This document shows, one piece after another, positions 1 to 62,174 of a DNA stretch of 64,000 nt. The stretch comes from Closterium sp. NIES-65. Lineage: Eukaryota; Streptophyta; Zygnematophyceae; Desmidiales; Closteriaceae. The stretch covers positions 116,343-180,342 of the forward strand of contig CANXME010002588.1 in NCBI GenBank assembly GCA_948144175.1, in the 5' to 3' direction. Within the stretch, counting starts at the first letter, position 1. Every line of letters begins with the position of its first letter. The translations under genes were made by a program, and so were the position numbers. The notes beneath the pieces are model-generated. The model saw only the letters and a list, made by a program, of their open reading frames with translations, had not been told where the DNA came from and searched no databases.

Positions 1-1
1 C

Positions 2-694
2 GACCAGCACTTCGTTTCGATATTCATCGTCAACCAGCGCGACACAACACACACAGCGACATTTTCATTCGAGGATTTCGTGCCGTTTGACGCGGGGCAG
101 GAGTGTGTGTTGGAGACGTATCGCACGTCAGCGACGGAAAATAACACGCTGGTGGCGACTCAAAGTTACACAGACGTGCCAGCTTTGATACAGGTGGCGG
201 CGCTGGGCAGCTCGATGACTTCTGTGGTGCTGCGGAATGTGGACCCCGCGTACGGATGTGCTGCTTGCAGGGATGGTGCATTTTACATCGGAGTGCTTAG
301 CATTGAATTTAGGGGTCTTAGCATAGCGCTGCATCAGTACTGCTGGCTGCAGGGTTTGACGCGGGTCAGGCGGGTGTGGTGCGCACGTCAGCCACGGAGA
401 ACAGCACGCTATCCGGAGGGAGCTACTCCGATGTACAGGTGGCTGCGCTGGCCTGGTCTTTTGCATCTGTGGTGCTGCACAAGTTGGCTGGCCCTTGCAT
501 CCTGCAGCAATGGTGCTGGTTGGAGAGTTACACAAGGCAGAGCCGCTCACAAGTGCTGCGTGTGCTGCGCAAAGTGCACACCACGCGTATTGGCATACAT
601 AGTGATGATGGCATGGCATTGGTCGAGAGAGCAGAGCTGCTCTTTAAAGCCGAGTCTACAAGTGGCTGCACTGGGCTATATGAATCCTGTGTAG
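2..694 (+). CDS. GH30-like glycoside hydrolase, 3' end only (left copy)
   Basis: The reading frame enters from the left edge (first full codon at 2) and stops at 692-694. It is the C-terminal part of the enzyme seen in full-length exon form at 56656-58486, differing by few residues (for example V for L in the TDVPAL stretch). Residues up to about position 245 form the C-terminal beta-sandwich segment typical of GH30 enzymes. The remaining 150 codons are Cys/Trp/Arg-rich, resemble no domain I know, and overlap a degenerate repeat of the preceding segment, so the true protein end or a terminal intron may lie near 240-300. No catalytic residue is inside the window in this copy. Confidence 0.75.
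   Translation, partial: DQHFVSIFIVNQRDTTHTATFSFEDFVPFDAGQECVLETYRTSATENNTLVATQSYTDVPALIQVAALGSSMTSVVLRNVDPAYGCAACRDGAFYIGVLSIEFRGLSIALHQYCWLQGLTRVRRVWCARQPRRTARYPEGATPMYRWLRWPGLLHLWCCTSWLALASCSNGAGWRVTQGRAAHKCCVCCAKCTPRVLAYIVMMAWHWSREQSCSLKPSLQVAALGYMNPV
354..490 (+). repeat. Degenerate copy of the GH30 C-terminal coding segment
   Basis: Positions 354-490 repeat 85-236 in diverged form. Read two bases out of phase, the downstream copy gives RTSATENSTL, VQVAALAWSFASVVL, matching RTSATENNTL and IQVAALGSSMTSVVL upstream. The 269-bp offset is not a multiple of three, so the copy is not in frame with the enzyme. It could be a decayed tandem exon or an alternative last exon. The same arrangement is at 58146-58282 in the right copy. 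Confidence 0.8.
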
Positions 695-1309
695 CGATGG
701 CATGATCACAAGGGAGGGAGCTGCTCCTCCGGCCAGGTCGTCGGTACAAGGGGCTGCAGGCTGCGGCCTCGTGGCAGGCAGCCATTGCACAGCCTTGCAC
801 AATTGGGACTCCCTGCGGTTGCACAGTTACCACTAGTTAACTAGAATAAGTATTCACCCTGCCTAGTGCAGGCGGGGTTACTAGCAAGGACCACAGAACA
901 GAGCTATGATGCCGTGTACGCGGACCCTGCATAGCATAGCAAAAAGTATCACGTTGTTAGTACATAAGGTATTGTCCCCTGCGTTGTTGCCTGAACCATC
1001 TGGGTGTATGGTTAGAGAAAGCAGAGCTGTGCATTCTGGTTTTGAGATGGAAAATTGTGTGCCAGGTGTCTACAGCTGTTCATGTGTACCGGTAAGGGGA
1101 TTTGCGTGTGGATGACACATGCATGTGCTTGTTGATCAAAGAAGGTGCTTCAGGTCAAACCTACTAAGGTAAACTACGGTAAGGTACCATCAACGCTATA
1201 CATTAGCATTGCAGCCAGCGCTAGGGTGACTAGCAAAGCATCAGTAAAAAAACATCAGCGACAATTGCACACCTGAAGCGTACAACTATAACTTATGCCA
1301 CAGCTAATC
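695..1309. other. Intergenic, between convergent GH30 and kinase genes
   Basis: This stretch is the shared 3' flank of the plus-strand GH30-like gene and the minus-strand kinase gene. I see no coding potential longer than short random frames and no RNA gene. It is nearly identical to 58487-59101. Confidence 0.7.
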
Positions 1310-2497
1310 TCACACCACCATGGCAGAAGCTGCCTCCACGCCTGCCCTCAGATCCGAGCCTACACTGAAACCCAGACCTGCTTCCGAGCCTGTCCTCAAA
1401 CCTGCCACGCTGGTGTGGCAATGCCGGAGGATCCAAGGATGAAAGAGGATTTGCGCGGCAGTGGGACGCTGCTGGGGGTTCCTCTGCAGCAGGCACAGCA
1501 CAAGCCGCTTTGCCTCCTCCGACACTCCCGCCCACTCCTCGCCACTTAAATCCACCACGCCTTTCAGCACCTCCACAAACACGTCCTTATCCGTCGGGCC
1601 CCAGAAAGGCGGCGCCCCGCAGAGCAAGATGTATAGAATCACGCCCAGAGACCACACGTCGGCTTCTAACGCGTATTCGCCTAGGAGGACCTCAGGAGCC
1701 ATGTAGAACGGCGATCCCGCGACGCCCATTGCGCGATTGCCTGATTGCAGGGGAACCGCAAGGCCGAAATCCGCGAGTTTTGTGGTTAGCGGTGCGGTGG
1801 AGAACGGTGCGGAGGGGTCGCGCGTGAGCAGGATGTTTTCCGGCTTGAGATCGCGGTGGAGGACGCCTCGCGCGTGGCAGTGTGCGACGGCCGATGCGAC
1901 CTGTGCGAACACGTTCGCAGCGTCGCGTTCACTCAGTCGCCCGCGTCGCACGACTTCGTCGAACAGTTCGCCGCCTTCGCACAGATCCATGACTAAATGC
2001 ACTGAATGCTCGTCCTCGAAAACTCCGCGCAATTGCACCACCCCGGGATGCGCCACCCCCTGCGTCTCCCCAGCTCCGCTTCCGCCAACCCGCTGCATCA
2101 GCGCAACTTCTCGCCGCACCTCCTCCTGCTCCGCCTCGCTTCTAAGCCTGTCCTTGGAGATCGTCTTGCACGCGAAGCGCGCGCCTGTAAGCCGCTCGGT
2201 GCAGCGTCGCACGGTCCCGAACTGGCCGGTTCCTAAGACATGAGAGTCTAACGAAAAGAATGATTCGAGAGGGGCTGTTTGGAACGGAAGGACTTGACCA
2301 TGCGACGACGGCGACAATGGCGACGTTGGCGACGAGCAGCGATCCTGGGCTTGGTCGACCCATCGCAGCTGTGATTCAGGCTGCGACGAGGCGTCGGGCT
2401 GATGTTGCTGTTTCCTCTGCGACCTTACGGTATGCGACTTGCGAGTGTCTCGCACGCTGCTGCGATCTGTTGGTGCTTGCAGAGAGAAGTGGGCCAT
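1310..2497 (-). CDS. Ser/Thr protein kinase, CaMK group, PEPRK/CDPK-like without EF hands (left copy)
   Basis: The 395-residue protein comes from one uninterrupted exon. A polar N-terminal tail of about 78 residues precedes a complete kinase domain: glycine loop LGTGQFGTV (88-96), ATP-binding Lys111 in FACK, catalytic HRDLKPEN (214-221), DFG (243-245), APE (267-269) and the C-lobe HPW at 353-355. All catalytic residues are present. It should phosphorylate Ser/Thr substrates in the cytoplasm or nucleus. The catalytic-loop and activation-segment style (GSPFYMAPEVL) places it with plant CDPK/SnRK/PEP-carboxylase-kinase-related enzymes. The 40-residue tail has no EF hands, so a calcium-binding CDPK is unlikely. 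Compared with the right copy it has Val131 and Ser326 where the other has Phe and Leu; the other differences I saw are silent. The start is the first in-frame Met; a later start would remove only the disordered tail. Confidence 0.93.
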   Translation of the reverse strand: MAHFSLQAPTDRSSVRDTRKSHTVRSQRKQQHQPDASSQPESQLRWVDQAQDRCSSPTSPLSPSSHGQVLPFQTAPLESFFSLDSHVLGTGQFGTVRRCTERLTGARFACKTISKDRLRSEAEQEEVRREVALMQRVGGSGAGETQGVAHPGVVQLRGVFEDEHSVHLVMDLCEGGELFDEVVRRGRLSERDAANVFAQVASAVAHCHARGVLHRDLKPENILLTRDPSAPFSTAPLTTKLADFGLAVPLQSGNRAMGVAGSPFYMAPEVLLGEYALEADVWSLGVILYILLCGAPPFWGPTDKDVFVEVLKGVVDLSGEEWAGVSEEAKRLVLCLLQRNPQQRPTAAQILFHPWILRHCHTSVAGLRTGSEAGLGFSVGSDLRAGVEAASAMVV

Positions 2498-4350
2498 TAT
2501 GGCTGATCGAATCTGATAGAGCAGTTAGAAGCTTGAAGGAAGAGTGGGTGCTAGTAGCGACTACGGCGACCAGTACTTGAAAATATCAACGAGTTAAGTA
2601 AATGCCGCAGACAAGTTCGTACCGGGAGTTCGAGCAGCGAGTGCTAAGAAACAACCAGATGCAGAAGGACTTGAGTTTCCGGATTCTGTGTTGAGTACCT
2701 GGCATGGCTGCTGCATACTTATGCGTGAGCGTGACGGTGAGATTTCTCTCGGCCTTTCCAGAACGAGCCGCTCCAAGACTCTCCAAGTCGCGATCCTTCT
2801 GGTTGCTTCTGGCTCACGCTCGCGCCTTCCATTTTCTCTGTTCGACAATGCCAAGTCAGTCGTCGTGGTTGTGCGAACCGCAGGTTACCCTTACTGCCAA
2901 TCAGCGATTCGTGCAGCTGTCTCGTTTGAGCCCACACCTGTCGCCTAGTAGTCGTCGTCGAGTCTGTCGGTGTCGTCGGAAGCAACGAACGAAGGTCAAC
3001 GAAGGGTGCAGAGAGCCTTCGCGCGAGGTCACTTTCGTTTCTGTGACGCCTGTCAGTTGCTCGGCGGAAGTAAAAAGGCGAGGATTTTTGTTCGAGTGTG
3101 GCGTGGCAATGTGCTCTGATTGGTCTCGCTCCGCCAACCTCAACTTTGGGTCGGCTCTGGACTGCACGGCACGGCAGACGTCAATTCACATAACCGTCGC
3201 AGAAAGATGACCGAGGCTTCCATGCGAAACACTTTCGCGGATATTTCAAGTCTGTACTCGTTACAGTCTGTGCTAAGCTGCTGGACAAGTGAAAGGAAAA
3301 CATTGTCTCAAGGCCTTTCACCATAAGTTGTGCATCGAGTGTACCCTGACAGAAATCCCAGAATAGGGGCTTCTGCTTCCTTCAGACCTCGGCAGGTGTG
3401 TTGACAAGCATCACCCTTGTGGCCCTGTGTGGCTAAGTGAACTAACTTCGCTTGCCCCTCGACACTATCAGTGTCCATGGCACCCCCATTCCGCTGAGAT
3501 AACGCCAACGGAATGGGCCTCCAAGCGTCGGCGTTCGTGGCATCGTGTGTACCTCCAACGTCGCCTAGCGATGCGACCCCCGTCGGCTTCCCCCACGCGC
3601 GTGCACCCTTTCGGCGCCGAACCAGCGAAACGGACGGCGAACCCAGCGAGGGTTCCCCACGCCGAGCCTGCCATCCAGTTTACCACTTCCATCGTGTTGT
3701 CTCGATGTCATCGCGTCGCATTGGCATCTCGCATATCCCATCCAGGGTTGACCAAATTTCCACGCCTGATGGCGGAGCGAGCGTCACCCGCTCCACGCCA
3801 TGATCGTCACAGCGATCCATTTCGTCCTGTACTGTACCACCGCGCGCCAACTTTTCTCTCGCTCCTACCCACCCCATCCATCGCCTCGCCAGATGCGTGA
3901 GATCCTCTTCCCGCGAGCTCTTCGACGAATACCCCTTGCACGGGAGTTTGTCGCAATGAGACCTCTTTCTCCTTTCACGGAGTCCGTCAGTGGCAGGTGT
4001 TCTCGCAGCTCGCTTCGTCCTCAGGCTGCTCGCAGCTGTGCTCCGGTTTCGAACCGGGTTGTCAAGCGCTTTCCCTTGCACGCGAGGCGTTGCACCAGTT
4101 CTGCTCGCAGTCTGGTTTTGCCATCTCCTTTCACTTGCAGCTTTGCGGCTTACACTCTCTCAAGTCGAATTGGCACAGTGAACTAGCAGTACTGGTTTCC
4201 AGTAGCACCATCAGCACCGGGAGGTGATTGCGATCGGCTTCTTGCCTGGCGGCGATTAGTTTCGCAGCGGGCAAAGTATTTTTACTACTTAACTACCTGC
4301 CATGTTGTCGCGGAGTTGTCGCATCCTATCGCTGGTAGAACTGGCGACAG
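2498..4350. other. Intergenic between kinase and glycosyltransferase promoters
   Basis: This is the 5' flank of the kinase and, by comparison with the right copy, the promoter and 5' leader of the glycosyltransferase gene. Short frames occur on both strands, but none resembles a known protein and several are interrupted between the two copies, so I call no gene. Most of the differences between the two copies lie here, as expected for non-coding DNA. Confidence 0.65.
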
Positions 4351-5172
4351 CCCCTCCGCCCCTCCAGCTCCACCCGCGCCCTTGCCCCCCTTGCCTTTGC
4401 CAGAGCGGCGTCTCCCACTAGGGGCAGACGCCGCGCCAACCGACTCGAGACCAAGCAGGTCGGCAGCAGCAGCAGAGGCAACAGAGGGCAGGAGGGGGGA
4501 AGGAGAGCACCCCTCAAAGATGGGGGTGCGAGGGTCACCACGAGAAGCTCCTACAGCGACGATGCGCTTCTCCGCCGCTAGGAGGGCCTTCTCGAGGATG
4601 TCGATGGTGAGGGTGGTGGGACAGACCGCGAGAAAGTGGTCCCTGACTACGCGAAGAGAGTCAGGGAGGCGCGCGACTACGTAGTAGAGAGTGATCTACA
4701 TGGGGGGGGGGTTCTTGGTGCAGAACTCAGCAGGAAGGGCGGCGCGGTAGCGAGTGTCACTAGTGCGGAGGTGCGTAATGAGGTCAGCGACAGTGGGAAA
4801 GGCAGAGAGGTCAGGAAAGAGGTAGGGAAGCATGAGACGGCTCAGTGCAGCAGTGGCAGGGGAGGAGTAGCGCGCGACTACAGCGTCGTACAAGGTCTGA
4901 GCACTCTTGTACTGACTAAAGTGCGCGCGCTCAGAGGTAGGGAGGTGGGGACGCACAGCAAGACGTGCAGCAGCATCGCGGGTGGCCCACTGAGAGCGCA
5001 CAGTGGGATCAGCATCAGCAGCAGGGGCAGGAGAGGCACCAGAAGTGAGGTCAAAGAGAGAAAGGCCGTCTGCTCTGTCGCACTGTAAGAACAGCTGCAG
5101 GTCGTCGACCTAGACCTCAAAGTCAATGGCGCGACCCTCAGCGTCAAAAGCTAGGACACTAGGGGTAGCCAT
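4351..5172 (-). pseudogene. Copia gag fragment, element D
   Basis: The frame starts at the ATG at 5172 (MATPSVLAFDAEGRAIDFEV) and matches the gag of elements A, C and E. It encodes the helical N-terminal capsid-like region of copia gag. A Trp codon is TAG at 5110-5112, and a Tyr codon is TAG just after the poly-C tract near 4697. The sequence runs into the start of the glycine-rich region and ends at 4351. It cannot make a functional capsid protein. Confidence 0.9.
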
Positions 5173-5285
5173 GACAGCAGTAGAAGGTCTCACCAGACAG
5201 GTTGGGTCGGGCAGCGCAGTAGCACACTAGTACTGCAACACAGCAGCTCAACCGGCTCAGCAGCAACAGCAGCTCCGCAGGACCA

Positions 5286-6170
5286 GCGGCTCGGCTCCTC
5301 AGGCGGTGCAGGCGGCTCGGGCGGCGCAGGCGGCTCGGGCTGTCAGCGACACAGGGCGGCCCGGGGCTGGGACGGGCGGCGCGCGGGCGATCAGGGGCCG
5401 GGACGGGCGGCGCGCGGGCGTCGAGAGGCCGGGACGGGCGGCCAGCGGGCGGCTAGGGGCCGGGACGGCGGCGCGCTGGCGTCGAGGGGCCGGGACGGGC
5501 GGCCAGCGGGCGGCTAGGGGCCGGGACGGGCGGCCAGCAGGCGGCTAGGGGCCGGGACGGGCGGCGTGCGGGCGTCAAGGGGCCGGGACGGGCGGCCAGC
5601 GGGCGGCTAGGGGCCGGGACAGGCGGCGCGCGGGCGATCAGGGGCCGGGACGGGCGGCGCGCGGGCGTCGAGAGGCCGGGACGGGCGGCCAGTGGGCGGC
5701 TAGGGGCCGGGACGGCGGCGCGCGGGCGTTGAGGGGCCGGGACGGGCGGCCAGCGGGCGGCTAGGGGCCGGGACAGGCGGCGCGCGGGCGGCTAAGGGCC
5801 GGGACGGGCGGCGCGTGGGCGGCTAGGGGCCTAAACGGGCGCGCGCGGGCGGCTAAGGGCCTGAACGGGCGGCGCGTGGGTGGCTAGGGGCCGGGACGGG
5901 CGGCGCTTGGGCGGCTAGGGGCCTGAACAGGCGCGCGCGGGCGGCTAAGGGCCTGAACGGGCGGCGCGTGGGTGGCTAGGGGCCGGGACGGGCGGCGCTT
6001 GGGCGGCTAGGGGCCTGAACAGGCGCGCGCGGGCGGCTAGGGGCCTGAACGGGCGGCGCGTGGGCGGCTAGGGGCCGGGACAGGCGGCGCGTGGGCGGCT
6101 AGGGGCCTGAACGGGCGCGCGCGGGTGGCTAGGGGCCGCAGGGCAGGCCGAAAAAAAGTGAAAGCGAGGG
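5286..6170 (-). repeat. GC-rich minisatellite leader of element D
   Basis: About 0.9 kb of imperfect tandem units of roughly 33-36 bp with the core GGGGCCGGGACGGGCGGC, variants carrying GGCCTGAACGGGCG. It lies between the primer-binding site and gag, where all five copia elements of the window carry a different GC-rich repeat. Frames through it are an effect of composition, not genes. Confidence 0.9.
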
Positions 6171-6246
6171 CCCGGAGCGCGCTCCGGGCAGAGAAAAAAA
6201 AGTTTAAAGGTGGTGGGCCCTAAGCACAGTTCCCACGGGGGAACCT

Positions 6247-6257
6247 GCTCGATACCA
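6247..6257 (-). promoter_or_regulatory. Primer-binding site of element D
   Basis: TGGTATCGAGC on the minus strand, directly after the LTR. It is the plant initiator tRNA-Met site TGGTATCAGAGC with one base missing, so priming would be impaired. Confidence 0.8.
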
Positions 6258-6391
6258 TGATGAGAATAGAACGAGAATGAATGAACTATGAATGAAGTGA
6301 GTACAAATAGGAAACCCTAACTGGTTGTACCCCCTATGGGATGCCCCACTACAGCCTACACAATAGTATAAGCTATATATATGTTCTGACA
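6258..6391 (-). repeat. 5' LTR of element D
   Basis: 134 bp, beginning TGTCAGAACATA and ending TCATCA on the minus strand. It shares the core GTGTAGGCTATAGTG(G) with the other LTRs of the window apart from point changes. It contains a telo-box AAACCCTAA at 6312-6320 (plus strand). The adjoining 5 bp TTGAA (6392-6396) would be one half of its target duplication; the other half is lost. Confidence 0.88.
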
Positions 6392-7657: not shown

Positions 7658-7782
7658 TGTTATGAAGAAGAAGTGATTGCACTATGAAAGTTGGAGTAAA
7701 AGTAGGAAACCCTAACTTTGTGTACCCCCTAAAGGCTAACCCACTATAGCCTACACAATAATAACACATGTAGTGTTTGACA
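7658..7782 (-). repeat. 3' LTR of element B
   Basis: 125 bp, TG...CA ends (TGTCAAACAC... to ...TTCATAACA on minus). It differs from the 5' LTR at two positions. A telo-box AAACCCTAA lies at 7707-7715 (plus strand). The purine-rich tract CTATGGGGGTG just inside it (7783-7793 as complement) is the expected polypurine tract. Confidence 0.93.
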
Positions 7783-8012
7783 CACCCCCATAGGCAAAGT
7801 GGGGGAGAACAAGGGGTCACAAGACCAGTCAAGAAAGGCAAGCAAGCTCAGGGTGGATCACAACGTCACCACACACTCCGAGCACAAGCAAAGGGCCACA
7901 AGGCCAGTTCACATGCAGAAGTATATATAAGTAGTACAGACAGCAAGGGTGATCTCAACCTAGCAGAGCAAACAGGCAGGAGTATATATAGAGATCACAG
8001 TACAGACAAAGC

Positions 8013-8794
8013 CTACAACAAGTGAGACAAAGTGGGCACTAGCCCCAACAAAGTACAGAAGCGCTGATGATCACTAGGCTGAAGTGCCTTGGTGAAAATA
8101 TCAGCGGTGTTGGCCTGAGAGGCCACGTAGCGCAGACGAAGCTGACCACGCTGCTGAAGCTCACGAGCAAGGAAGTAACGGAGAGCGATGTGCTTTGTTC
8201 TGTGCTCCAGTCTGTGCTCTTCACATAAGGCAATGGCAGCCTTGTTGTCGACGTACAGCACTGGAGGAGAACTTGGCCGCTCTCCAAGGTCGGTCAGCAG
8301 GTAGGTGAGCCACCGTAACTCCTGTGCAGCCATGGCTGTGGCGTAGATCTCAGCCTCACAACTAGAGCTGAGAACCGAAGACGAACGAGTAAAGCGCCAC
8401 GAAACTGAACCAGAGCCAAGGCTGAAGGTGTAACCCTGTGACGACCGCTGAGTAGCCTGGTCGTCAACCCAAGAAGCGTCTGAGTGCCCAGTGAGAACAA
8501 CTGAGCTCCCTCCTCCAAGCACGAGCCCCATGCCCGATGTACTGCGCAAGTAGCGCAATACCCTCTTTGCAGCATCCCAGTGCACCTTTCGGTGATGACC
8601 AGGAGCCACGTAGCGAGCCAGAAGGCCAAGAGGGTATGCTAGGTCAGGACGAGTGCAAGTCATCAGGTACATGAGGCAACCAACTAGCTCTGGGTAAGGA
8701 CCACTCGACTCTACGGACTAATCTGAAGGCAGAGCTGAGAGCGAGTGACCTATAGCCAGAGGAGTGGCCTGTGCTGAGGACCAGGTGAAGCCGA
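8013..8794 (-). pseudogene. Copia RNase H and end of reverse transcriptase, element B
   Basis: The segment continues the B polyprotein after the A insertion: end of the RT thumb/connection (LVGCLMYLMTCTRPDLAYPL), then RNase H with the acidic motifs HSDASWVDD and YVDNKAAIALC and the usual TKHIALRYF and NTADIFTKAL. The stop is at 8013-8015. A Glu codon is TAG at 8718-8720 (minus strand). The 230 bp up to the LTR are 3' untranslated with TATATA runs. Confidence 0.92.
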
Positions 8795-8925
8795 TGTCAG
8801 AACATTATAGCTTATGCTTTTGTGTAGGCTATAGTGGGGTATCCCATAGGGGGTACAACCCAATTAGGGTTAGTACTTGTACTCACTTCATTCATAGTTC
8901 ATTCATTCGCGTTCACTTCTTCACA
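8795..8925 (+). repeat. 5' LTR of element A
   Basis: 131 bp, TGTCAGAACATT to CTTCTTCACA. It is the type sequence of the A/C LTR group and carries TTAGGGTTAG in place of the full telo-box found in B, D and E. Confidence 0.95.
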
Positions 8926-8937
8926 TGGTATCAGAGC
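8926..8937 (+). promoter_or_regulatory. Primer-binding site of element A
   Basis: TGGTATCAGAGC directly after the 5' LTR, the standard plant copia site complementary to initiator tRNA-Met. Confidence 0.95.
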
Positions 8938-9026
8938 AGGTCCCCTCCTAGGGACTGTTCCTAGGGCCCACCGAAGCGCGCCCTGAGGCGCGCGTTCCTT
9001 TTTTTAGCGACCCTCCGTGTCGCCCC

Positions 9027-9700
9027 TAGCGGCCCGTTACGCCGCCCTTACCTACGCAGCCCCGCCGCCCTTACCTACGCGGCCCCGCCGCCCTTACCTA
9101 CGCGGCCCCGCCGCCCTTACGTCGCGGCCCCGCCGCCCTCACGTCGCGGCCCCGCCGCCCTCACCTACGTGGTGCCGCCGCCCTCACCTCCGCGGCCTCG
9201 CCGCCCTCACCTACGCGGCCCCGCCGCCCTCACCTTCGCGGCCTCGCCGCCCTCACCTTCGCGGCCCCGCCGCCCTCACCAACGCGGCCCCGCCGCCCTC
9301 ACCTTCGCGGCCTCGCCGCCCGTGCCTACGCGGCCCCGCCGCCTTCTCCTACGCGGCCCCGCCGCCCTCACGTCGCGGCCCCGCCGCCCACACCTTCGCG
9401 GCCCCGCCGGTCTCCCCTCCTGCCGAGCCGCCCGAGCAGCCGCCCGCCACGCCGCCCGGTACCGGAGCAGCCGAGCCGCCCAGCAGCAGCTGCCGAGCCG
9501 CCCAGCAGCAGCTGCCGAGCCGCCGCGCCGCCGAGCCGCAGTCCAGCCGAGCCGCCCAGCAGCAGCCGCCGAGCCACCGGGCCGCCGAGCCGCAGTACAG
9601 CCGAGCCGCCCAGCAGCAGCCGCCGAGCCGCCGGGCCGCCGAGCCGCAGTACCGCCGAGCCGCCCCGCAGCCAAGCCGCACTACTGCCGAGCCGCCTGAC
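9027..9700 (+). repeat. GC-rich repeat leader of element A
   Basis: First, about 390 bp of 22-bp-like units around GCGGCCCCGCCGCCCTCAC; then from about 9420 longer units built on GCCGAGCCGCCCAGCAGCAG. It sits between the primer site and gag. A 257-codon frame runs through it (9017-9790) but is a by-product of the repeat and is out of frame with gag. Confidence 0.9.
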
Positions 9701-9776
9701 CTGCCCTGTCTGGTGAGCACAGCCCCACTGCTACTGCGTGCACTTCCCCCACTGCTTGCACTGCTAGTCTGTCGTC

Positions 9777-11075
9777 ATGGCTACCCCTAGTCTCCTCGCT
9801 TTTGACGCTGAGGGTCGAGCCATTGACTTTGAGGTCTGGGTCGATGACCTGCAGCTGTTTTTACAGTGCGATAGGGCGGGGAGTCTTTCTCTCTTTGACC
9901 TCACCTCTGGCGCCTCCCCTGCTCGTGCTGCTGATGCTGACCCCACTGTTCGCTCTCAGTGGGCCACCCGCGATGCTGCTGCACGTCTTGCTGTGCGTCG
10001 CCACCTGCCTACCACTGAGCGCGCGCACTTTAGTCAGTACAAGAGTGCTCAGATCTTATACGACGCTGTAGTTGCGCGCTACTCTTCCCCTGCCACTGCT
10101 GCACTGAGCCGCCTCATGCTACCGTACCTCTTTCCTGACCTTGCTGCCTTTCCTACAGTCACTGACCTCATCACGCACCTCCGCACTTCTGACACTCGCT
10201 ACCGCGCCGCACTTCCTGCTGAGTTCTGCGCCAGGAACCCCCCCCCCCCCATGTACATCGCTCTCTATTACATAGTTACTCGCCTCCCTGACTCCCTTCG
10301 CGTAGTCAGGGACCACTTCCTCTCAGTCTGTCCCACCACTCTCACTGTCGACCTCCTCGAGAAGGCCCTCCTAGCGGCGGAGAAGAGCATAGTCGCTGTA
10401 GGAGCCTCTCGTGGTGACCCGCGCACCCCCGTCTTTGAGGGGTGTTCTCCTTCCCCCCTGCTGCCCTCTGTTGCCTCTTCTGCTGCTGCTGCCGACCTTC
10501 TTGGTCTTGAGTCGGTCGGCGCGGCGTCTGCCCCTAGCGGGAGACGCCGCCCTAGCAAGGGCAAGGGGGGCAAGGGCGCGGGTGGAGCTGGCAGGGGCGG
10601 TGGAGGTGGCAGTGGCGGTGGCGGAGGGAGTGGGGGTGGCGGTGGGAGTGGTGGTGGGGGTGGTGGTGGTGGTGGCGGCAGCGGAGGCGGCGGCGGTGGC
10701 GGTGGCGGCGGTGGGAGCGGAGGCGGCGGTGGTGGCGGAGTTGGAGGCGGCGGTGGCAGAGGAGGTGGTGGTCAGCGCCAGCAGCACTAGCAGCAGCAGC
10801 GTTCTCGAGACATCCCCCCGCCTCAGCAGCTCCGTGAGTGGTACACGCAGCGTCAGCGTAGTGGGGGTCTTGGCCCGTGCACCTACGTTCTTCATTCCGG
10901 CGACCGCGCGGGTGAGCACTGTGGGGGTGCCCACTCCACCCAGCGCTGCTTTGGCCGCCTGACGGACGCTTGGCGTCAGCAGTTCCCCGAGGCTAGTGAG
11001 ATTCCCCGCTGAGGAGAGCTGTCTAGGGCTGGCGTAGCGATCTTTGATCTTGACTTTGATGCTATCCTTGCTGCC
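9777..11075 (+). pseudogene. Copia gag, element A
   Basis: Start ATG at 9777 (MATPSLLAFDAEGRAIDFEV). A helical capsid-like region of about 250 residues is followed by a long poly-Gly/Ser tract (about 10590-10780) and a nucleocapsid-like zinc motif starting CTYVLHSGDRAGEHC near 10880. Two in-frame stops break it: TAG at 10788-10790 (a Gln codon in relatives) and TGA at 11010-11012 (a Trp codon). The poly-C tract at 10239-10250 gives PPPP in frame here. Confidence 0.93.
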
Positions 11076-13505: not shown

Positions 13506-13567
13506 CTGCTTGCGCTAGTGATCGTGGTTCGCGTCAGCGTCCTCCTCCTGTCCCTGGCACGCACCGG

Positions 13568-20558: not shown

Positions 20559-20619
20559 AGCAGCAGTAGAGTAGCAGTAGTTGCACCCTAAAAACAGTAG
20601 GCAGGGAGACTCAGGTAGG

Positions 20620-47701: not shown

Positions 47702-47835
47702 TGTCAGAACATTATAGCTTACTTATTTGTGTAGGCTATAGTGGCGTATCCCATAGGGGGTACAACCCAATTAGGGTTTCCTATTTGTACTCACCTCGTT
47801 CATAGTTCATTCATTCTCTCGTTCACTTCTTCTCA
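47702..47835 (+). repeat. 5' LTR of element E
   Basis: 134 bp, TGTCAGAACATT to CTTCTTCTCA. Differs from the 3' LTR by GTGGCG for GTGGGG. Telo-box (TTAGGGTTT) at 47771-47779. Confidence 0.95.
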
Positions 47836-47847
47836 TGGTATCAGAGC
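47836..47847 (+). promoter_or_regulatory. Primer-binding site of element E
   Basis: TGGTATCAGAGC, the exact plant initiator tRNA-Met site, directly after the LTR. Confidence 0.95.
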
Positions 47848-47904
47848 AGGTTCCCCTGTGGGAACTTTGCTTAGGGCCCACCACTTCGATTTTTTTTTTT
47901 TCCT

Positions 47905-48625: not shown

Positions 48626-48740
48626 CCTGCTCCTGTGGGGCTGCTGCTGCTCCTGGACCGGCGCAGCCGCTGCACTGCCGTGTTACTGTACTACTGAGCT
48701 ACCCAACTCTTCCTGCCCGGTGAGACTGTCAGCTGCTATA

Positions 48741-51700: not shown

Positions 51701-54689
51701 CCTCCCCCCTCAGGGTCCTGCCCCTTCAGGTGTGTCCCAGGTAGACGCGGTCGAGCCTGTCGAGGTCGCTGGTGACTCTGGTGCTGCTGTGGGTGCTGAG
51801 CCTGGGGGTGCTGTGCCTGGGGGAGCTGAGCCTGGGGGTGCGGGGTCTAGGGGTGCTTAGTCTGGGGGTGCTGAGCCTAGGGGTGCTGAGCCTAGGGGTG
51901 CTGAGCCTCGGGGTGCTGAGTCTGGGGGTGCTGAGTCTGGGGGTGCTGAGCCTGGGGGTGCTGAGCCTGGGGGTGCTACGCCTGGAGGTGCTTTGCCTGG
52001 GGGTGCTGCGCCTGGAGGTTCTTCGCCTGGAGGTTCTCCGGGTGCTTCGTCTCGCCGAGAGCCACTCTCCTCACAGGAGCTGCATGAGTGGTTTGCTCGG
52101 CGCTGGAGGCGTGCTGCTGGTGCTGGAGGTTCTTCTGCTGCTGAGGGTGCTGCTGCCGCGGGTCCCGGAGGTGCTCGTACTGGGAGTACTGGAGCTGCTG
52201 GGCCTGCGGGATCGCCTGGAGCTGGTGCTGCTAAGGGTGTTGGCGCTGAGACTACCACTGGTGGTTCGACTGGCGGTGCTCGCGGTGCTGCTGGAGGTTC
52301 TGGGGCTACTGGAGGAGCTGCTGGGGGTTCTGGAGCCACTGGAGGTGCTGCTGGAGATGCTGCTGGAGCGTGTACTCCTGCTGGGGGTAATGGTGCTGTC
52401 CCTGCTGTTTCTGGCCTCGCCACGCGGCCCTGACCGTACTTCGTACCGCTCCTGCAGCAGGTTCTTGGTCTTCCACCTTCTCCTGGTCCTCCTCCTCCTC
52501 CTCCCTTAGAGGGTCCACAGCCTATCCAGTCACTGCTACAGCCTGCCTCCCCTTTGCCTGCTCCTTCTCCCTACGCTGGTCCGACTGGAGGTCTTACTGA
52601 GCGTCGTGAGCCTGCGTCTCGTCCTGTGTCGCCTGTTCGTACTGCGCGCACTAGTGGTCGCGGTTCGCGTCAGCGTCCGCCTCCTGTCCCTGGCACGCAC
52701 CGGATGTCTCTCCGTCCGTCCACTGATCCTCTACGTGCCTCTTTGCCTTCTCCTCCTTCTTCCTCTCTTCCTGCTCTTGCCGACCCGGAGTCGGACTCTC
52801 TTCGTGCTGCCAGTCCTACTGTCACGCGTTTCCGTGCTACTGCTGTCACTGACCCTTCTTTCGAGTCTTCTGCTGCGTCTGCCCTTGTCACTGAGCTTGT
52901 CGACTTTGCTGCGCGCTGTCGTCTAGACTACGCTGCTGGTCTTGTCGCTGAGTCTGAGTCTACCTGTCCTCCGTCCGTCGGGGGTGAGTGTGCCCTTGGC
53001 ACGGACGTCCTTGAGGACAGGCAGGAGGAGTTTCAGTGTCTGGCCGCCGCCTCACCTCATCTCGCGTCTTTACTGCTAGCCCCTGAGGGAGACCCGGATG
53101 CACTAGACATCCCGACTCCGCGCTCTTACGCGGAGGCGATAGAGGGTCCCTACTCCTCTCAGTGGCAGGCAGCTATGGATGCAGAGATGGCTTCCTGGAA
53201 GTCCACAGGCACCTACGTTGATGCTGTTCCCCCTCCTGGGGCGAACATCGTCAGTGGCATGTGGATTTTCAGGGTGAAGCGGCCGCCGGGTTCTCCGCCT
53301 GTCTTCAAGGCGCGGTACGTGGCTCGTGGTTTCAGTCAGCGGCAGGGAGTTGACTACTTTCAGACCTTCTCCCCCACCCCGAAGATGACCACTCTTCGGG
53401 TACTGCTGCACGTTGCTGCTCACCGTGACTACGAGCTGCACTCTCTCGACTTCAGCACTGCTTTCTTGCAGGGCAGCCTGCACGAGGAGATCTGGCTGCG
53501 TCGCCCACCTGGCTTCACTAAGTCTTTCCCTCCTGGTACCCAGTGGAGTCTCCGGCGTCCAGTCTATGGTCTCCGCCAGGCGCCGCGTGAGTGGCACGAC
53601 ACACTGAGGACTACGCTTGCGGCTCTTGGGTTTGCTCCCTCTACTACCGACCCGTCGCTGTTTCTACGCACCGACACCTCTTTGCCGCCGTTCTACATCC
53701 TCGTGTACGTCGACGACTTGGTCTTTGCCACAGCTGACACTGCTGGACTCGCCTACGTGAAGTCCGAGCTGCAGAAGAGACACACGTGCACTGACCTGGG
53801 TGAACTGCGCAGCTACCTTGGCTTGCAGATCACCCGGGACAGAGCACGCCGCACCATTACCCTGACTCAGTCACACATGGTGCAGCAGGTCCTTCAGCGC
53901 TTCGGCTTCACGTACTCCTCGCCTCAGGCCACTCCTCTGCCTACTCGCCACTCGCTCTCAGCTCTGCCTTCGGATGAGTCCGTAGAGTCGAGTGGCCCGT
54001 ATGCAGAGCTTGTTGGCTGCCTCATGTACCTGATGACCTGCACACGACCTGACCTTGCATACCCTCTGAGCATTCTTGCACGCTATGTTGCTCCTGGGAG
54101 ACACCGACCAGAGCACATGGCTGCAGCGAAGAGGGTGTTGCGCTACTTGTGCAGTACGTCGGGCATGGGGCTAGTGCTTGGAGGGCGGAGTCCAGTGGTC
54201 CTCACTGGACACGCGGACGCCTCTTGGGCTGACGACCAGGCTACGCAGCGGTCGTCACAGGGTTACACCTTCAGTCTTGGTTCCGGCTCTGTTTCGTGGC
54301 GGGCTACCCGCTCGTCTTCCGTTCTCGGCTCGAGTTGTGAGGCTGAGATCTACGCCGGGGCCATGGCTGCACAGGAGTTACGCTGGCTCACCTACCTGCT
54401 GACCGACCTTGGAGAGCCGCCTCGTTCTCCTCCAGTCCTGTACGTAGACAACAAGGCCATGCTGCCCTTGTGTCAAGAGCAGCGACTGGAGCACAGGACA
54501 AAGCACATTGCTCTCCGCTACTTTCTTGCTCGTGAGCTACAGCAGCGTGGACAGTTGCGACTTGCGTACGTGGCCTCTGAGGCCAACACTGCTGATGTCT
54601 TCACCAAGGCACTTGCACCTTGTGATCATCAGCGCTGCTGCACGCAGCTGGGCCTTGTGCCTGCCTTGCCTCACTTGCTCACTTCTTGA
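48741..54689 (+). pseudogene. Copia gag-pol polyprotein, element E, three stop codons
   Basis: One frame of 1,982 codons from ATG 48741 (MATPSVLTFDAEGRAIDFAV) to TGA 54687-54689. Order: capsid-like gag; poly-Gly tract (about 49550-49740); zinc motif from Cys379 (C-x13-C-x3-H-x4-C, 49875-49946); protease LDSGAS (catalytic Asp codon 50265-50267); integrase HHHLGHPS, HMDVWGP, HSDRGGEF, SPQQNGIAERR; linker with AEPGG repeats (about 51790-52030); RT with YVDD (53706-53717); RNase H with HADASWADD and YVDNKA. Stops: TAA 50982-50984 (Tyr in A), TAG 51858-51860 (in the repeat linker), TGA 52431-52433 (Arg in A). All catalytic motifs are intact. Having gag and pol in one frame is usual for copia. Confidence 0.95.
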
Positions 54690-54901
54690 CCTCGCTTGTA
54701 CTTCTACCTATATATACTCTTACTCTTGCTTGTTTGTCTCTTGTATATCTCTATATATGATCTTGCATGTGAACTGGCCTTTTGGCCTTTGAACTTGTAC
54801 TCGGAATGTGTGGTGACTTTGTGATCCACCCTGAGCTTTGCTTTGCTTTGCTTGATTGGTCTTGTGACCCCTTGCTCTCCCCCACTTTGCCTATGGGGGT
54901 G
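54690..54901 (+). other. 3' untranslated region and polypurine tract of element E
   Basis: TATATA-containing stretch after the stop, then CTATGGGGGTG just before the 3' LTR as plus-strand primer. Confidence 0.8.
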
Positions 54902-55035
54902 TGTCAGAACATTATAGCTTACTTATTTGTGTAGGCTATAGTGGGGTATCCCATAGGGGGTACAACCCAATTAGGGTTTCCTATTTGTACTCACCTCGTT
55001 CATAGTTCATTCATTCTCTCGTTCACTTCTTCTCA
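54902..55035 (+). repeat. 3' LTR of element E
   Basis: 134 bp, partner of 47702-47835; telo-box at 54971-54979; followed by ACACC. Confidence 0.95.
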
Positions 55036-56655
55036 ACACCCACCCTATTTGTGGTCAATTTCTGATTGTGAATGGCAAGAACCACCCACTTACTGCCACG
55101 TCTGCAAATTGTGCTCAACTTCTGAAGTTGAGCACCGATCGTGGTGAGAGACCCAACACGTGGCTTCGTCAAACATGGCCCATTCAACTACAGATCACTT
55201 CCGTAAACCACACTACCCCGACGATCGACTATAATTCGCCACCACGCTGCCCCAACCGGCCGATTAACTGTCATTCACGACATGAACTCCAACCTAGAAA
55301 TCCAAGCCGACACCCCACCACGCGGCATCCGGGGGGATCACATTTTTCTGATGGGCGGGCGCCGGAGTCAACTGCGCGCGGGCGCTCCCTGGCGGCTTCC
55401 GCCGCCGCCAGCGGCGCCGACGAGGGCGAGTGCAACGTAGAGTGGATGCTGCTGTGGCCGGCGCGACAGGGATGCTGGCGGCCGCGCATGACGGCGCAAG
55501 GCAAAACTTCCGCGCGCGTGACTTCCGCCACCTCCTCCTCCGCGCACCGCCAAGCTACCACGCAAAGCCTGACTTCCGCAGGCGCTGTGATCGCGCAGGC
55601 TTCCGCGCCTCCCCCTTCCCCTCCCGACGACCGGCCAGGCGACGGGGATGGGGGGAGCACTCCGCCCGCGGGGAACGAGGCGCGGCTGACACCCGACAAT
55701 GAGATCATCGGCGTGTGCCGATTCGGAGGTGAGATATCCGCGATATAGAGTTGTGACGTCCTTCAAAGAACAGGAGGACCATGTGAAGGGGGGGGATACT
55801 CCCATTGGACTAGGGCTGCGGCCAACGGGGGGTCAATAGGGGCGGCGGAGGGTCTATGTGGGCAACGGATGGGGAATGAGGGCAAGGGAGGGGCAATGGG
55901 GGCAATGAGGGCGGCAATGGGAGGGGGGGGGGCAATGATCATGGCAATGCTCCGCAATTGATCGCATGATGATGCGATCATACGCGCGTGCAGGTCTGGG
56001 AGGGAGGTATCCGCGTTTAGAGTCGAGGTGGGTGGATGAGCAGGAGAGAAAACGCTGTAAGTGTTGAGCCAGAGCAGGTGGCAGCAAACGATGTTCTCAT
56101 TATAGCCAGCATCGCAGTTAGTGTTAGACCATCTTCGTCATGCCCTCGCTGTGCCCCCGCTGTGCCCCCACTGTGCCCCCGCTGTGCCTTGAGTCCCGTT
56201 GGCTGGCTCAATATCTTCTCTCCTTTCCTTCCCAACGTCTTCTTTCCGTCTCCTCCCCTTCACCTCTTTCTTCTCTCATTCCCTTTCGTTGCCGCGCAGC
56301 CCCCTCCACCATCACCATCGCCCTGGCTGGAACGGACAGACGTGGCGAGGCTGGGGCACTTCGCTGGCATGGTGAGTTGCTGAGCTGGCATGGTGAGTTG
56401 CTGATCTGACATGGTGAGTTGCTGATCTGGTATGGTGAGTTGCTGAGGTGGCATGGTGAGTCGCCTAGCTGGCATGGTTACCTGCTTAGCTGGCATGGTT
56501 CCATGTCTCATGTCTCATGTCTCATGTCCCTTGTCTCATGTCTCATGTCCGATGTCTCGTGTCCCATGTCCCATGTATCGTGTGCACGCACACTCTCCCA
56601 CCTCCCATGCATCAATACCGCTTACCCCTTGCCCCTTGCCCTTTGCCCCTCCCAG
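55036..56655 (+). other. Upstream region and intron of the GH30-like gene
   Basis: The GH30 exon opens after an acceptor (CTCCCAG) at 56655, so a first exon with signal peptide and the start of the barrel should lie upstream. A long frame at 55068-55748 is open but resembles nothing and I do not call it. Short repeats fill the 3' part of the presumed intron. Element E may separate the gene from its promoter. Confidence 0.5.
56143..56585 (+). repeat. Short tandem repeats in presumed GH30 intron
   Basis: Three adjoining types: 12-bp units around CGCTGTGCCCCC (56143-56190), about six 21-bp units around GGCATGGTGAGTTGCTGAGCT (56366-56500) and 7-bp CATGTCT units (56505-56580). The 21-bp units repeat a GGTGAGT splice-donor-like word. 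Confidence 0.85.
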
Positions 56656-58486
56656 GTTCGCCAACTACGTGGGCAAGCTGCCGGACGACCAGTTTGATCT
56701 CATAATGGATTTACTCCTCGACAAGGACAAGGGCATCGGACTCAACTTGGCCTGCTACCTCATTGGCAGCAGCGTCAACTACACCAACAGCCCCCAGTTC
56801 CTCACCGCCGCCTGGGAGACCCGCTCCATCCCCGGCTTCCGCGTCCAGCCAAACGGGCCGTACGACTGGACGGCGGACGGGCGGCAGAGGCGGACAATGC
56901 TCGCCGCCCTGGCGCGGAATGTGGACGAAGTTGAGGCGGTGTCGTACTCGCAGCCCTGGTGGATGACGGTCAGTGGGGACACTGCCGCGACAGAAACAGG
57001 CAAGTGCAACTTAAAGCCCGAGTACTTCCAGGCGTACACGGAGTATCAAGCTTCGGTGATCGAGCATTACCGCACGCACTGGAACGTGACTTTCTCGACC
57101 ATGACCCCGGCGAATGAGGCGTTGGAGGGGTGGTGGACGCAGGGCCACAAGAACGAGGGGTGCAACTACAGCCCTGAGAAGCTGACCACTCTTATCCGGC
57201 TCCTCACAGCCACCTTAACGAGACTCAAGCTGCCGACAAAAGTCGCGGGGTTTGACAGTTTCGTCGGCGCGACTCTCCAGTACACGTTCAAGTTCCCTGC
57301 TGCGTTGAAGGCCGGCCTGTTTCGGCTGAATGTGCATGGGTACATAAACCCGCCGCCCAGCACGGCAGACACTCAGCAGTACATGGAAGGTGTGATGGTG
57401 AGCATGCACCGCATGGCGACCGGACTAGGGAAGGAGGTGTGGGTGTCGGAGGTGGGGCCGATGTGGGTGAGCGGGAATGATTTCGGTGTGATGCTGTTCA
57501 CGGCGCGGCAGATAGTGGAGACTGTCAACATCATGGGGGCTTCGGCCTGGATTTTCTGGCAGGCTGTGAGTGGGGTGGGAGGGAACAACCCAGACGCGTT
57601 TCTGAAATGGGGGCTATTGGCGGTCAGGATCTACCGGCTGAACGACACAGAAGTCAAGCCGTTGGATCTGGTGATCTCCAAGAAGCTCTACATGCTGCAG
57701 CAGTTTGTGCGTGGGGCGCCGAGAGGAAGCCTGCCTTTGCGAATCCACACATCGGACGGGTGCCAGCACTGCATTGCCGCCTTCTTCCACCCCGACCAGC
57801 ACTTCGTTTCGATTTTCATCGTCAACCAGCGCGACACAACACACACAGCGACATTTTCATTCGAGGATTTCGTGCCGTTTGACGCGGGGCAGGAGTGTGT
57901 GTTGGAGACGTATCGCACGTCAGCGACGGAAAATAACACGCTGGTGGCGACTCAAAGTTACACAGACCTGCCAGCTTTGATACAGGTGGCGGCGCTGGGC
58001 AGCTCGATGACTTCTGTGGTGCTGCGGAATGTGGACCCCGCGTACGGATGTGCTGCTTGCAGGGATGGTGCATTTTACATCGGAGTGCTTAGCATTGAAT
58101 TTAGGGGTCTTAGCATAGCGCTGCATCAGTACTGCTGGCTGCAGGGTTTGACGCGGGTCAGGCGGGTGTGGTGCGCACGTCAGCCACGGAGAACAGCACG
58201 CTATCCGGAGGGAGCTACTCCGATGTACAGGTGGCTGCGCTGGCCTGGTCTTTTGCATCTGTGGTGCTGCACAAGTTGGCTGGCCCTTGCATCCTGCAGC
58301 AATGGTGCTGGTTGGAGAGTTACACAAGGCAGAGCCGCTCACAAGTGCTGCGTGTGCTGCGCAAAGTGCACACCACGCGTATTGGCATACATAGTGATGA
58401 TGGCATGGCATTGGTCGAGAGAGCAGAGCTGCTCTTTAAAGCCGAGTCTACAAGTGGCTGCACTGGGCTATATGAATCCTGTGTAG
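56656..58486 (+). CDS. GH30-like glycoside hydrolase, endo-beta-1,6-galactanase type (right copy, 5' exon missing)
   Basis: A large exon starting after an AG acceptor. It opens with FANYVGKLPDDQFDLIMDLL, as GH30 barrels do after their first exon. Acid/base Glu is in TPANEALEGWW (codon 57116-57118) and the nucleophile Glu in VWVSEVGPM (57449-57451); WWMTVSGD and CNLKPEYFQAY also match plant-type endo-beta-1,6-galactanases. Such enzymes cut the beta-1,6-galactan side chains of arabinogalactan proteins, normally outside the cell; the signal peptide must be in an unseen exon. From 57793 the sequence is the duplicated block. The frame runs to a stop at 58484-58486, but the family domain ends near 58035; the rest may be intron or 3' untranslated. 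Substrate is inferred from family likeness. Confidence 0.82.
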
Positions 58487-59101
58487 CGATGGCATGATCA
58501 CAAGGGAGGGAGCTGCTCCTCCGGCCAGGTCGTCGGTACAAGGGGCTGCAGGCTGCGGCCTCGTGGCAGGCAGCCATTGCACAGCCTTGCACAATTGGGA
58601 CTCCCTGCGGTTGCACAGTTACCACTAGTTAACTAGAATAAGTATTCACCCTGCCTAGTGCAGGCGGGGTTACTAGCAAGGACCACAGAACAGAGCTATG
58701 ATGCCGTGTACGCGGACCCTGCATAGCATAGCAAAAAGTATCACGTTGTTAGTACATACGGTATTGTCCCCTGCGTTGTTGCCTGAACCATCTGGGTGTA
58801 TGGTTAGAGAAAGCAGAGCTGTGCATTCTGGTTTTGAGATGGAAAATTGTGTGCCAGGTGTCTACAGCTGTTCATGTGTACCGGTAAGGGGATTTGCGTG
58901 TGGATGACACATGCATGTGCTTGTTGATCAAAGAAGGTGCTTCAGGTCAAACCTACTAAGGTAAACTACGGTAAGGTACCATCAACGCTATACATTAGCA
59001 TTGCAGCCAGCGCTAGGGTGACTAGCAAAGCATCAGTAAAAAAACATCAGCGACAATTGCACACCTGAAGCGTACAACTATAACTTATGCCACAGCTAAT
59101 C
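58487..59101. other. Intergenic, right copy
   Basis: Counterpart of 695-1309; convergent 3' flanks, no gene seen. Confidence 0.7.
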
Positions 59102-60289
59102 TCACACCACCATGGCAGAAGCTGCCTCCACGCCTGCCCTCAGATCCGAGCCTACACTGAAACCCAGACCTGCTTCCGAGCCTGTCCTCAAACCTGCCAC
59201 GCTGGTGTGGCAATGCCGGAGGATCCAAGGATGAAAGAGGATTTGCGCGGCAGTGGGACGCTGCTGGGGGTTCCTCTGCAGCAGGCACAGCACAAGCCGC
59301 TTTGCCTCCTCCAACACTCCCGCCCACTCCTCGCCACTTAAATCTACCACGCCTTTCAGCACCTCCACAAACACGTCCTTATCCGTCGGGCCCCAGAAAG
59401 GCGGCGCCCCGCAGAGCAAGATGTATAGAATCACGCCCAGAGACCACACGTCGGCTTCTAACGCGTATTCGCCTAGGAGGACCTCAGGAGCCATGTAGAA
59501 CGGCGATCCCGCGACGCCCATTGCGCGATTGCCTGATTGCAGGGGAACCGCAAGGCCGAAATCCGCGAGTTTTGTGGTTAGCGGTGCGGTGGAGAACGGT
59601 GCGGAGGGGTCGCGCGTGAGCAGGATGTTTTCCGGCTTGAGATCGCGGTGGAGGACGCCTCGCGCGTGGCAGTGTGCGACGGCCGATGCGACCTGTGCGA
59701 ACACGTTCGCAGCGTCGCGTTCACTCAGTCGCCCGCGTCGCACGACTTCGTCGAACAGTTCGCCGCCTTCGCACAGATCCATGACTAAATGCACTGAATG
59801 CTCGTCCTCGAAAACTCCGCGCAATTGCACCACCCCGGGATGCGCCACCCCCTGCGTCTCCCCAGCTCCGCTTCCGCCAACCCGCTGCATCAGCGCAAAT
59901 TCTCGCCGCACCTCCTCCTGCTCCGCCTCGCTTCTAAGCCTGTCCTTGGAGATCGTCTTGCACGCGAAGCGCGCGCCTGTAAGCCGCTCGGTGCAGCGTC
60001 GCACGGTCCCGAACTGGCCGGTTCCTAAGACATGAGAGTCTAACGAAAAGAATGATTCGAGAGGGGCTGTTTGGAACGGAAGGACTTGACCATGCGACGA
60101 CGGCGACAATGGCGACGTTGGCGACGAGCAGCGATCCTGTGCTTGGTCGACCCATCGCAGCTGCGATTCAGGCTGCGACGAGGCGTCGGGCTGATGTTGC
60201 TGTTTCCTCTGCGACCTTACGGTATGCGACTTGCGAGTGTCTCGCACGCTGCTGCGATCTGTTGGTGCTTGCAGAGAGAAGTGGGCCAT
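59102..60289 (-). CDS. Ser/Thr protein kinase, CaMK group, PEPRK/CDPK-like (right copy)
   Basis: 395 residues, one exon, same architecture as 1310-2497: glycine loop 88-96, Lys111, HRD 214-216, DFG 243-245, APE 267-269, no EF hands. It differs by Phe131 (in the helix-C region, RREFALM) and Leu326. Both are outside the catalytic motifs, so both copies should encode working kinases. Confidence 0.93.
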   Translation of the reverse strand: MAHFSLQAPTDRSSVRDTRKSHTVRSQRKQQHQPDASSQPESQLRWVDQAQDRCSSPTSPLSPSSHGQVLPFQTAPLESFFSLDSHVLGTGQFGTVRRCTERLTGARFACKTISKDRLRSEAEQEEVRREFALMQRVGGSGAGETQGVAHPGVVQLRGVFEDEHSVHLVMDLCEGGELFDEVVRRGRLSERDAANVFAQVASAVAHCHARGVLHRDLKPENILLTRDPSAPFSTAPLTTKLADFGLAVPLQSGNRAMGVAGSPFYMAPEVLLGEYALEADVWSLGVILYILLCGAPPFWGPTDKDVFVEVLKGVVDLSGEEWAGVLEEAKRLVLCLLQRNPQQRPTAAQILFHPWILRHCHTSVAGLRTGSEAGLGFSVGSDLRAGVEAASAMVV

Positions 60290-62174
60290 TATGGCTGATC
60301 GAATCTGATATAGCAGTTAGAAGCTTGAAGGAAGAGTGGGTGCTAGTAGCGACTACGGCGACCAATACTTGAAAATATCAACGAGTTAAGTAAATGCCGC
60401 AGACAAGTTCGTACCGGGAGTTCGAGCAGCGAGTGCTAATAAACAACCAGATGCAGAAGGACTTGAGTTTCCGGATTCTGTGTTGAGTACCTGGCATGGC
60501 TGCTGCATACTTATGCGTGAGCGTGACGGTGAGATTTCTCTCGGCCTTTCCAGAACGAGCCGCTCCAAGACTCTCCAAGTCGCGATCCTTCTGGTTGCTT
60601 CTGGCTCACGCTCGCGCCTTCCATTTTCTCTGTTCGACAATGCCAAGTCAGTCGTCGTGGTTGGGCGAACCGCAGGTTACCCTAACTGCCAATCAGCGAT
60701 TCGTGCTGCTGTCTCGTTTGAGCCCACACCTGTCGCCTAGTAGTCGTCGTCGAGGCTGTCGGTGTCGTCGGAAGCAACGAACGAAGGTCAACGAAGGGTG
60801 CAGAGAGCCTTCGCGCGAGGTCACTTTCGTTTCTGTGACGCCTGTCAGTTGCTCGGCGGAAGTAGAAAGGCGATATTTTTGTTCGAGTGTGGCGTGGCAA
60901 TGTGCTCTGATTGGTCTCGCTCCGCCAACCTCAACTTTGGGTCGGCTCTGCACTGCACGGCACGGCAGGCGTTCAATACACATAACCGTCGCAGAAAGAT
61001 GACCGAGGCTTCCATGCGAAACACTTTCGCAGATATTTCAAGTCTGTACTCGTTACAGTCTGTGCTAAGCTGCTGGACAAGTGAAAGGAAAACATTGTCT
61101 CAAGGCCTTTCACCATAAGTTGTGCATCGAGTGTACCCTGACAGAAACCCCAGAATAGGGGCTTCTGCTTCCTTCAGACCTCGGCAGGTGCGTTGACAAG
61201 CATCACCCTTGTGGCCCTGTGTGGCAAAGTGAACAAACTTCGCTTGCCCCTCGACACTATCAGTGTCCATGGCACCCCCATTCCGCTGAGATAACGCCAA
61301 CGGAATGGGCCTCCAAGCGTCGGCGTTCGTGGCACCGTGTGTACCTCCAACGTCGCCTAGCGATGCGACCCCCGTCGGCTTCCCCCACGTGCGTGCCACT
61401 TCTTCGGCGCCGAACCAGCGAAACGGACGGCGAACCCAGCGAGGGTTCCCCACGCCGAGCCTGCCATCCAGTTTACCACTTCCATCGTGTTGTCTCGATG
61501 TCATCGCGTCGCATTGGCATCTCGCATATCCCATCCAGGGTTGACCAAATTTCCACGCCTGGTGGCGAAGCGAGCGTCACCCGCTCCACGCCATGATCGT
61601 CACAGCGATCCATTTCGTCCTGTACTGTACCACCGCGCGCCAACTTTTCTCTCGCTCCTACCCACCCCATCCATCGCCTCGCCAGATGCGTGAGATCCTC
61701 TTCCCGCGAGCTCTTCGACGAATACCCCTTGCACGGGAGTTTGTCGCAATGAGACCTCTTTCTCCTTTCACGGAGTCCGTCAGTGGCAGGTGTTCTCGCA
61801 GCTCGCTTCGTTCTCAGGCTGCTCGCAGCTGTGCTCCGGTTTCGAACCGGGTTGTCAAGCGCTTTCCCTTGCACGCGAGGCGTTGCACCAGTTCTGCTCG
61901 CAGTCTGGTTTTGCCATCTCCTTTCACTTGCAGCTTTGCGGCTTACACTCTCTCAAGTCGAATTGGCACAGTGAACTAGCAGTACTGGTTTCTAGTAGCA
62001 CCATCAGCACCGGGAGGTGATTACGATCGGCTTCTTGCCTGGCGGCGATTAGTTTCGCAGCGGGCAAAGTTTTTTTACTACTTAACTACCTGCCATGTTG
62101 TCGCGGAGTTGTCGCATCCTATCGCTGGTAGAACTGGCGACAGCAACGTTAATGCTGGCCCTTTCCACTGTAAG
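60290..62174. other. Promoter region between kinase and glycosyltransferase, right copy
   Basis: Divergent genes share this 1.9-kb interval (kinase to the left, glycosyltransferase to the right). No coding feature is supported. The last 31 bp (62144-62174) are absent from the left copy. Confidence 0.65.

Follow-up and report, generated by a model that had tools for sequence, protein, structure and literature searches.

Closterium sp. NIES-65 is a desmidialean alga, and a 64,000-nucleotide stretch of its genome (GenBank assembly GCA_948144175.1, contig CANXME010002588.1, positions 116,343 to 180,342 of the forward strand; hereafter the window, numbered from its first base) carries the same 4.35-kb sequence near both of its ends, with a nest of copia retrotransposons between the two copies. 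The question raised by this locus is how one sequence came to lie in two places 57.8 kb apart, and why the inner end of the left copy runs directly into the interior of a retrotransposon. The simplest history, and the best single reading of the sequence, would be that a unit of 57,793 bp was duplicated in tandem, and we assign this an even chance of being correct. The remaining weight is spread over alternatives in which the repeat is an assembly product, a smaller inserted copy, or the residue of an older duplication that was later trimmed.

Geometry of the repeat and its junction

Self-BLAST of the window aligned positions 1-4351 with 57793-62144 in the same orientation (+/+), with 99.10% identity in an alignment of 4353 columns that includes 36 mismatches and 3 gap openings; in a global alignment of the same two segments, 39 columns differ. 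The original prediction had equated 1-4350 with 57793-62143 at about 99%, and this is confirmed with both right ends shifted by 1 bp. Once copia copies and local minisatellites are set aside, self-comparison found no other long direct repeat in the window, which has a G+C content of 58.8% and contains no Ns. A chance match as the source of the repeat is excluded by its length and identity.

The two edges of the repeat differ in kind. Its left edge, at 1 and 57793, is the boundary of the window and no repeat end, since 57793 merely mirrors the first base of the window and the true left end of the left copy lies beyond it. The right edge is a sharp breakpoint, at which the left copy (1-4351, plus strand) reads GACAGC/CCCTCC and the right copy (57793-62144, plus strand) reads GACAGC/AACGTT, and position 62144 is the genuine right edge of the latter.

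At the junction 4351/4352, host sequence abuts the gag interior of a copia element, D; any filler between them is probably 0-1 bp long and does not exceed 7 bp. Only the 5' half of D is present (4352-6391, minus strand), as delimited by BLAST to its paralogues in the window (elements A, F, G and E), by its tandem array, and by its long terminal repeat (LTR) end and flank. It comprises a 5' LTR at about 6263-6391, with the five bases TTGAA adjoining it, a 31-bp minisatellite at 5354-6138 and a gag start near 5175, and it is cut at 4352; because nothing of it beyond this LTR and a portion of gag is retained, it was assigned to copia by its similarity to A, F and G (84-91% identity). The pol region and 3' LTR of D are not in the window, where BLAST with the internal region of A (10750-15731) gave only A, E, F, G and short repeats. 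That the left copy joins the middle of the D gag and not an LTR end had been claimed from the letters alone, and alignment to the paralogues bears this out. By BLAST, homology to antisense gag begins at 4353 against A (90.6% identity) and at 4359 against both F (89.9%) and G (83.6%); by free local alignment the starts are 4348 for A, 4344 for F and 4353 for G. All of these lie in low-complexity sequence, and the start of homology varies with the paralogue and the aligner used. To within a few bases, D is nevertheless cut where the repeat ends.

This coincidence carries the argument. One event probably made both the repeat edge and the cut, since independent events would need to have met there by chance. 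The copies are in direct orientation, 4351 joins the D gag at 4352, and an N-free run continues from there to 62144, so that a single junction, 62144 to 4352, accounts for both features and favours a single tandem event over histories that need two junctions. The unit would then be 4352-62144 (plus strand), its left end being set by the junction alone, and a segment running from the D gag to just upstream of an ATG at 62175 would have been copied head to tail. Excision of this segment as a circle, followed by its reinsertion through recombination, would produce an identical junction. In either case the upstream copy would be expected to continue through the nest, with D whole at the original left edge. 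Because the repeat extends leftward beyond the window, everything within the window is also compatible with a smaller copied segment, of at least 4.35 kb and ending at 62144, that was inserted into the D gag; the nest would not have been duplicated and the 3' half of D would lie farther to the left. Such an insertion requires two new junctions rather than one, and we consider it unlikely.

Under a tandem duplication, the join from 62144 to 4352 is read as non-homologous because no long homology was detected between its two ends. For these comparisons the gag side was represented by the paralogues and by D to the right of 4352. The gag tracts of A, F and G have no 9-mer in common with 62145-62400, and local alignment of 61900-62400 to 4352-4900 gave at best a short match with gaps (score 25, of unassessed significance). 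Counted by hand from the alignment, 6 of 8 bases agree between the host end and the gag tract of F, which means little in a low-complexity tract. Recombination between repeats (non-allelic homologous recombination) was rejected for lack of clear homology at the breakpoints in the 9-mer and local alignment comparisons. The paralogous gag hinge at the break is G-rich: an absolute G4Hunter score of at least 1.2 is reached by 58, 62 and 72% of 25-base windows in A, F and G, respectively, against a background of 7% for the window as a whole, and by 39% in the gag part retained in D. End joining, or a switch of template by a polymerase, at the edge of this hinge probably produced the join, and it is plausible that a replication fork stalled there beforehand.

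Divergence between the copies and what it allows

The differences between the two copies are unevenly distributed with respect to coding potential, with 7 differing columns in 1,875 bases of open reading frame (ORF) and 32 in 2,476 non-ORF bases (Fisher p=0.0016). Five of the eight codon differences are synonymous, one of these five lying upstream of the ATG of a kinase ORF, and both this ORF and the tail of a glycosyl hydrolase (GH30) ORF are open in both copies. Because substitutions dominate, ORFs are poorer in differences, most codon changes are synonymous and the frames remain open, the copies have the appearance of sequences that have each evolved rather than of assembly noise; sequencing or read noise as the source of the differences was rejected on the first two of these observations. 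The contrast between ORF and non-ORF bases does not discriminate paralogues from alleles.

This last point leaves room for a false duplication, in which the assembler strung together two haplotypes, or homeologous segments, of one locus and the join at 4351/4352 is artificial. The geometry of the join would be the same, and both the 0.8-0.9% divergence and the clustering of the differences fit alleles. Furthermore, in a survey of false duplications, same-scaffold cases made up 7-24% of those in its older assemblies and 61-92% of those in its newer ones (PMC9516828). Set against this, the window has no N and no clear homology was found across the join, which makes an overlap of true reads unlikely as its origin, although a chimeric read or gap filling could have created it. 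In addition, if the host is a haploid alga there are no alleles to be placed in series, and homeologues would have to supply the second sequence. The haplotype alternative that accompanied the original prediction is weakened by these points, and we regard false duplication as doubtful, though as the likeliest of the alternatives to a tandem event.

Several observations also weigh against a single tandem event with a simple history. The first is the distribution of differences along the repeat. The 39 differing columns correspond to 38 positions (two columns share one position), and merging of positions within 5 bp left 34 events as input for a change-point test. The change-point falls at 2347 (permutation p=0.0002): the 2,347 bases on its left contain 6 of the 34 events (0.26%) and the 2,004 bases on its right contain 28 (1.4%), an about fivefold change in divergence between 1-2347 and 2348-4351. 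Non-ORF bases alone give the same picture, with 1 event in 621 bases (692-1312) versus 26 in 1,854 (2498-4351; p=0.006). Such uneven divergence is unexpected from a single duplication and a simple clock without gene conversion, and the step at 2347 suggests either gene conversion between the copies or recombination, for example between recombining alleles. The overall divergence of 0.8-0.9% is, moreover, within the allelic range. The proposed link to G-rich DNA is weakened by the host side of the break, where 0% is G-rich over both 4252-4351 and 62045-62244, and by the 7% of the window that is similar to the hinge.

Another such observation concerns element F, which is cut within its body at 24503 with no surrounding repeat. 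Truncation alone is therefore nothing special at this locus, and broken copia bodies arise here by routes other than duplication. This cut element also counts in favour of a later deletion: an older and larger duplication would have been followed by insertion of D, and a deletion would then have removed the 3' half of D together with the remainder of the left copy from 4351 onward. At least three events (duplication, insertion and deletion) are required by this history, and we hold it to be quite improbable.

The copia nest and the genes of the repeat

For a tandem duplication the age of the nest matters, and it can be compared with that of the repeat through the LTR pairs. Element E (7658-21479, minus strand) is interrupted by element A, and the flanking motif CCAAC sets its end at 21479; its LTRs, compared as 7658-7783 and 21355-21480, differ at 2 of 126 sites. 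Element A (8795-15862, plus strand) is inserted in E with the target-site duplication GCCGA, has pol domains, and carries LTRs at 8795-8925 and 15732-15862 that differ at 1 of 131 sites. Element G (47702-55035, plus strand) has both LTRs, with 1 of 134 sites different, and the target-site duplication ACACC. Pooled, the three pairs differ at 4 of 391 sites, or 1.02% (95% confidence interval 0.28-2.6%), compared with 36 of 4351, or 0.83% (0.58-1.14%), for the duplication. These values thus do not clearly place the insertions of A, E and G either before or after the duplication. As the insertions are not measurably older, some may post-date it, and copying of the whole nest does not follow. The prediction of a tandem duplication therefore stands as to its geometry, with the single junction from 62144 to 4352; the second copy of the nest that it implies would not be assured even by a real duplication. 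D itself must be older than the duplication under the tandem model, since the breakpoint sits within it.

The copia assignment of the nest is clearest for A, which has LTR ends of the form TG..CA, a plant-type primer site, and an rve domain followed by RVT_2. The primer site, TGGTATCAGAGC, is exact in A and G, has one mismatch in E and F, and lacks one base in D. In a literature search this string turned up among papers on plant copia elements and plant viruses, which probably points to a host among green plants or algae. Element F (24503-31406, minus strand) retains its 5' LTR and is missing its final approximately 420 bp, including the 3' LTR; the missing end was not found in the window by self-BLAST. 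The point at which F ends lies about 1 kb from Plavaka-type transposase sequence, two pieces of which are present on the minus strand, at 22615-23454 (E=1.9e-14) and 42368-43129 (E=1.3e-38). All five copia copies have GC-rich tandem arrays between the primer site and gag (5354-6138, 9040-9409, 20610-21213, 30619-31160 and 47905-48624), with repeat units that differ, in that order: 31 bp, 23 bp, mixed, 22 bp and mixed. Outside the copia elements, about 1.9 kb at 43757-45702 is dense in minisatellite arrays of about 40 bp. Searches with the copia reverse transcriptase ORF found no relative in the genome_contigs collection (37 stretches matched the pattern, 0 confirmed) or in the viral_contigs collection (3 matched, 0 confirmed).

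Two protein-coding genes lie in or across the repeat. An ORF with a GH30_2 domain (56447-58483, plus strand; Pfam PF14587, E=3.8e-18) reaches into the right copy, its true start being within the ORF, and the closest chain in the PDB is that of a secreted endo-beta-1,6-galactanase (E=1.3e-19). The left copy holds the C-terminal part of this ORF at 2-691 (plus strand), which is the same as the end of 56447-58483 except for 2 codons and by itself matched no Pfam family. At 58114-58494, and likewise in the left copy, the end of the GH30 ORF is overlapped by another reading frame. Judged by eye, its product resembles a degenerate version of the GH30 C-terminus, which would fit an earlier duplication of that tail.

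The second gene is a protein kinase ORF of the CaMK/CDPK type, open in the left copy at 1313-2497 (minus strand, ATG at 2497; Pfam Pkinase, E=2.7e-69) and in the right copy at 59105-60289 (minus strand; E=1.1e-67), where the end was transferred from the left-copy ATG. For the right-copy kinase, the closest chain in the PDB is calcium-dependent protein kinase 3 (E=2.2e-68). In viral_contigs, the kinase ORF has 35 distant relatives among 47 pattern matches, at 27-41% identity, which are uninformative on the junction.

Just right of the breakpoint, and present only beyond the right copy, is a putative glycosyltransferase ORF at 62175-63308 (plus strand), of which 62175 is the first ATG. The unit had been predicted to end in the 5' leader of a glycosyltransferase gene. 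The edge at 62144 does lie just upstream of this ATG; the glycosyltransferase label itself is backed by nothing more than a sub-threshold match to XG_FTase (xyloglucan fucosyltransferase; E 0.25 and 0.26). No Pfam family was found for this ORF at E<=0.001, and the PDB offered nothing closer than a ribosomal protein (E=0.79). A search of the window for tRNA genes found none.

The position of this leader also allows a speculative consequence to be considered. If a host promoter and leader were copied and placed before the antisense gag of D, RNA antisense to resident copia gag might be made from the left copy and might seed silencing of the family, of which A and F are about 90% identical to D in this part of gag. 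We think it very improbable.

Significance and relation to known systems

If real, the event would have raised, recently and in a single step, the copy number of two genes, one for a kinase and one for a GH30 enzyme, and perhaps that of the transposon nest as well, and its junction, at a G-rich tract of a transposon, would be resolved to the base. Large duplications of this type are well known, and tandem segmental duplication with an end-joining or template-switch junction is a known kind of event. Whether the locus poses a question of segmental duplication or of assembly, the kind of event is an ordinary and familiar one. Its value is mainly as a datable example and as a caution that read depth should be consulted before two kinase or GH30 copies are counted as gene gains.

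The locus resembles tandem segmental duplications with non-homologous junctions in its direct orientation, its single novel junction and the failure to find long homology between the breakpoints. It differs from them in that only the right end of the left unit is within the window and that the mechanism is inferred.

It can also be compared with the false duplications of the heterotype class (PMC9516828). Common to both is a single sequence on which two copies that differ by about 1% follow one another; here, the copies occur without an intervening gap.

The closest biological setting is Closterium itself. In a comparative study, the genomes assembled for this haploid alga, mostly from long reads, show genome-wide copy-number variation, and duplicated genes on one contig account for less than 1% of ortholog groups in any strain (PMC10407611). 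That variation has in common with the present locus a background of recent duplications in a repeat-rich alga.

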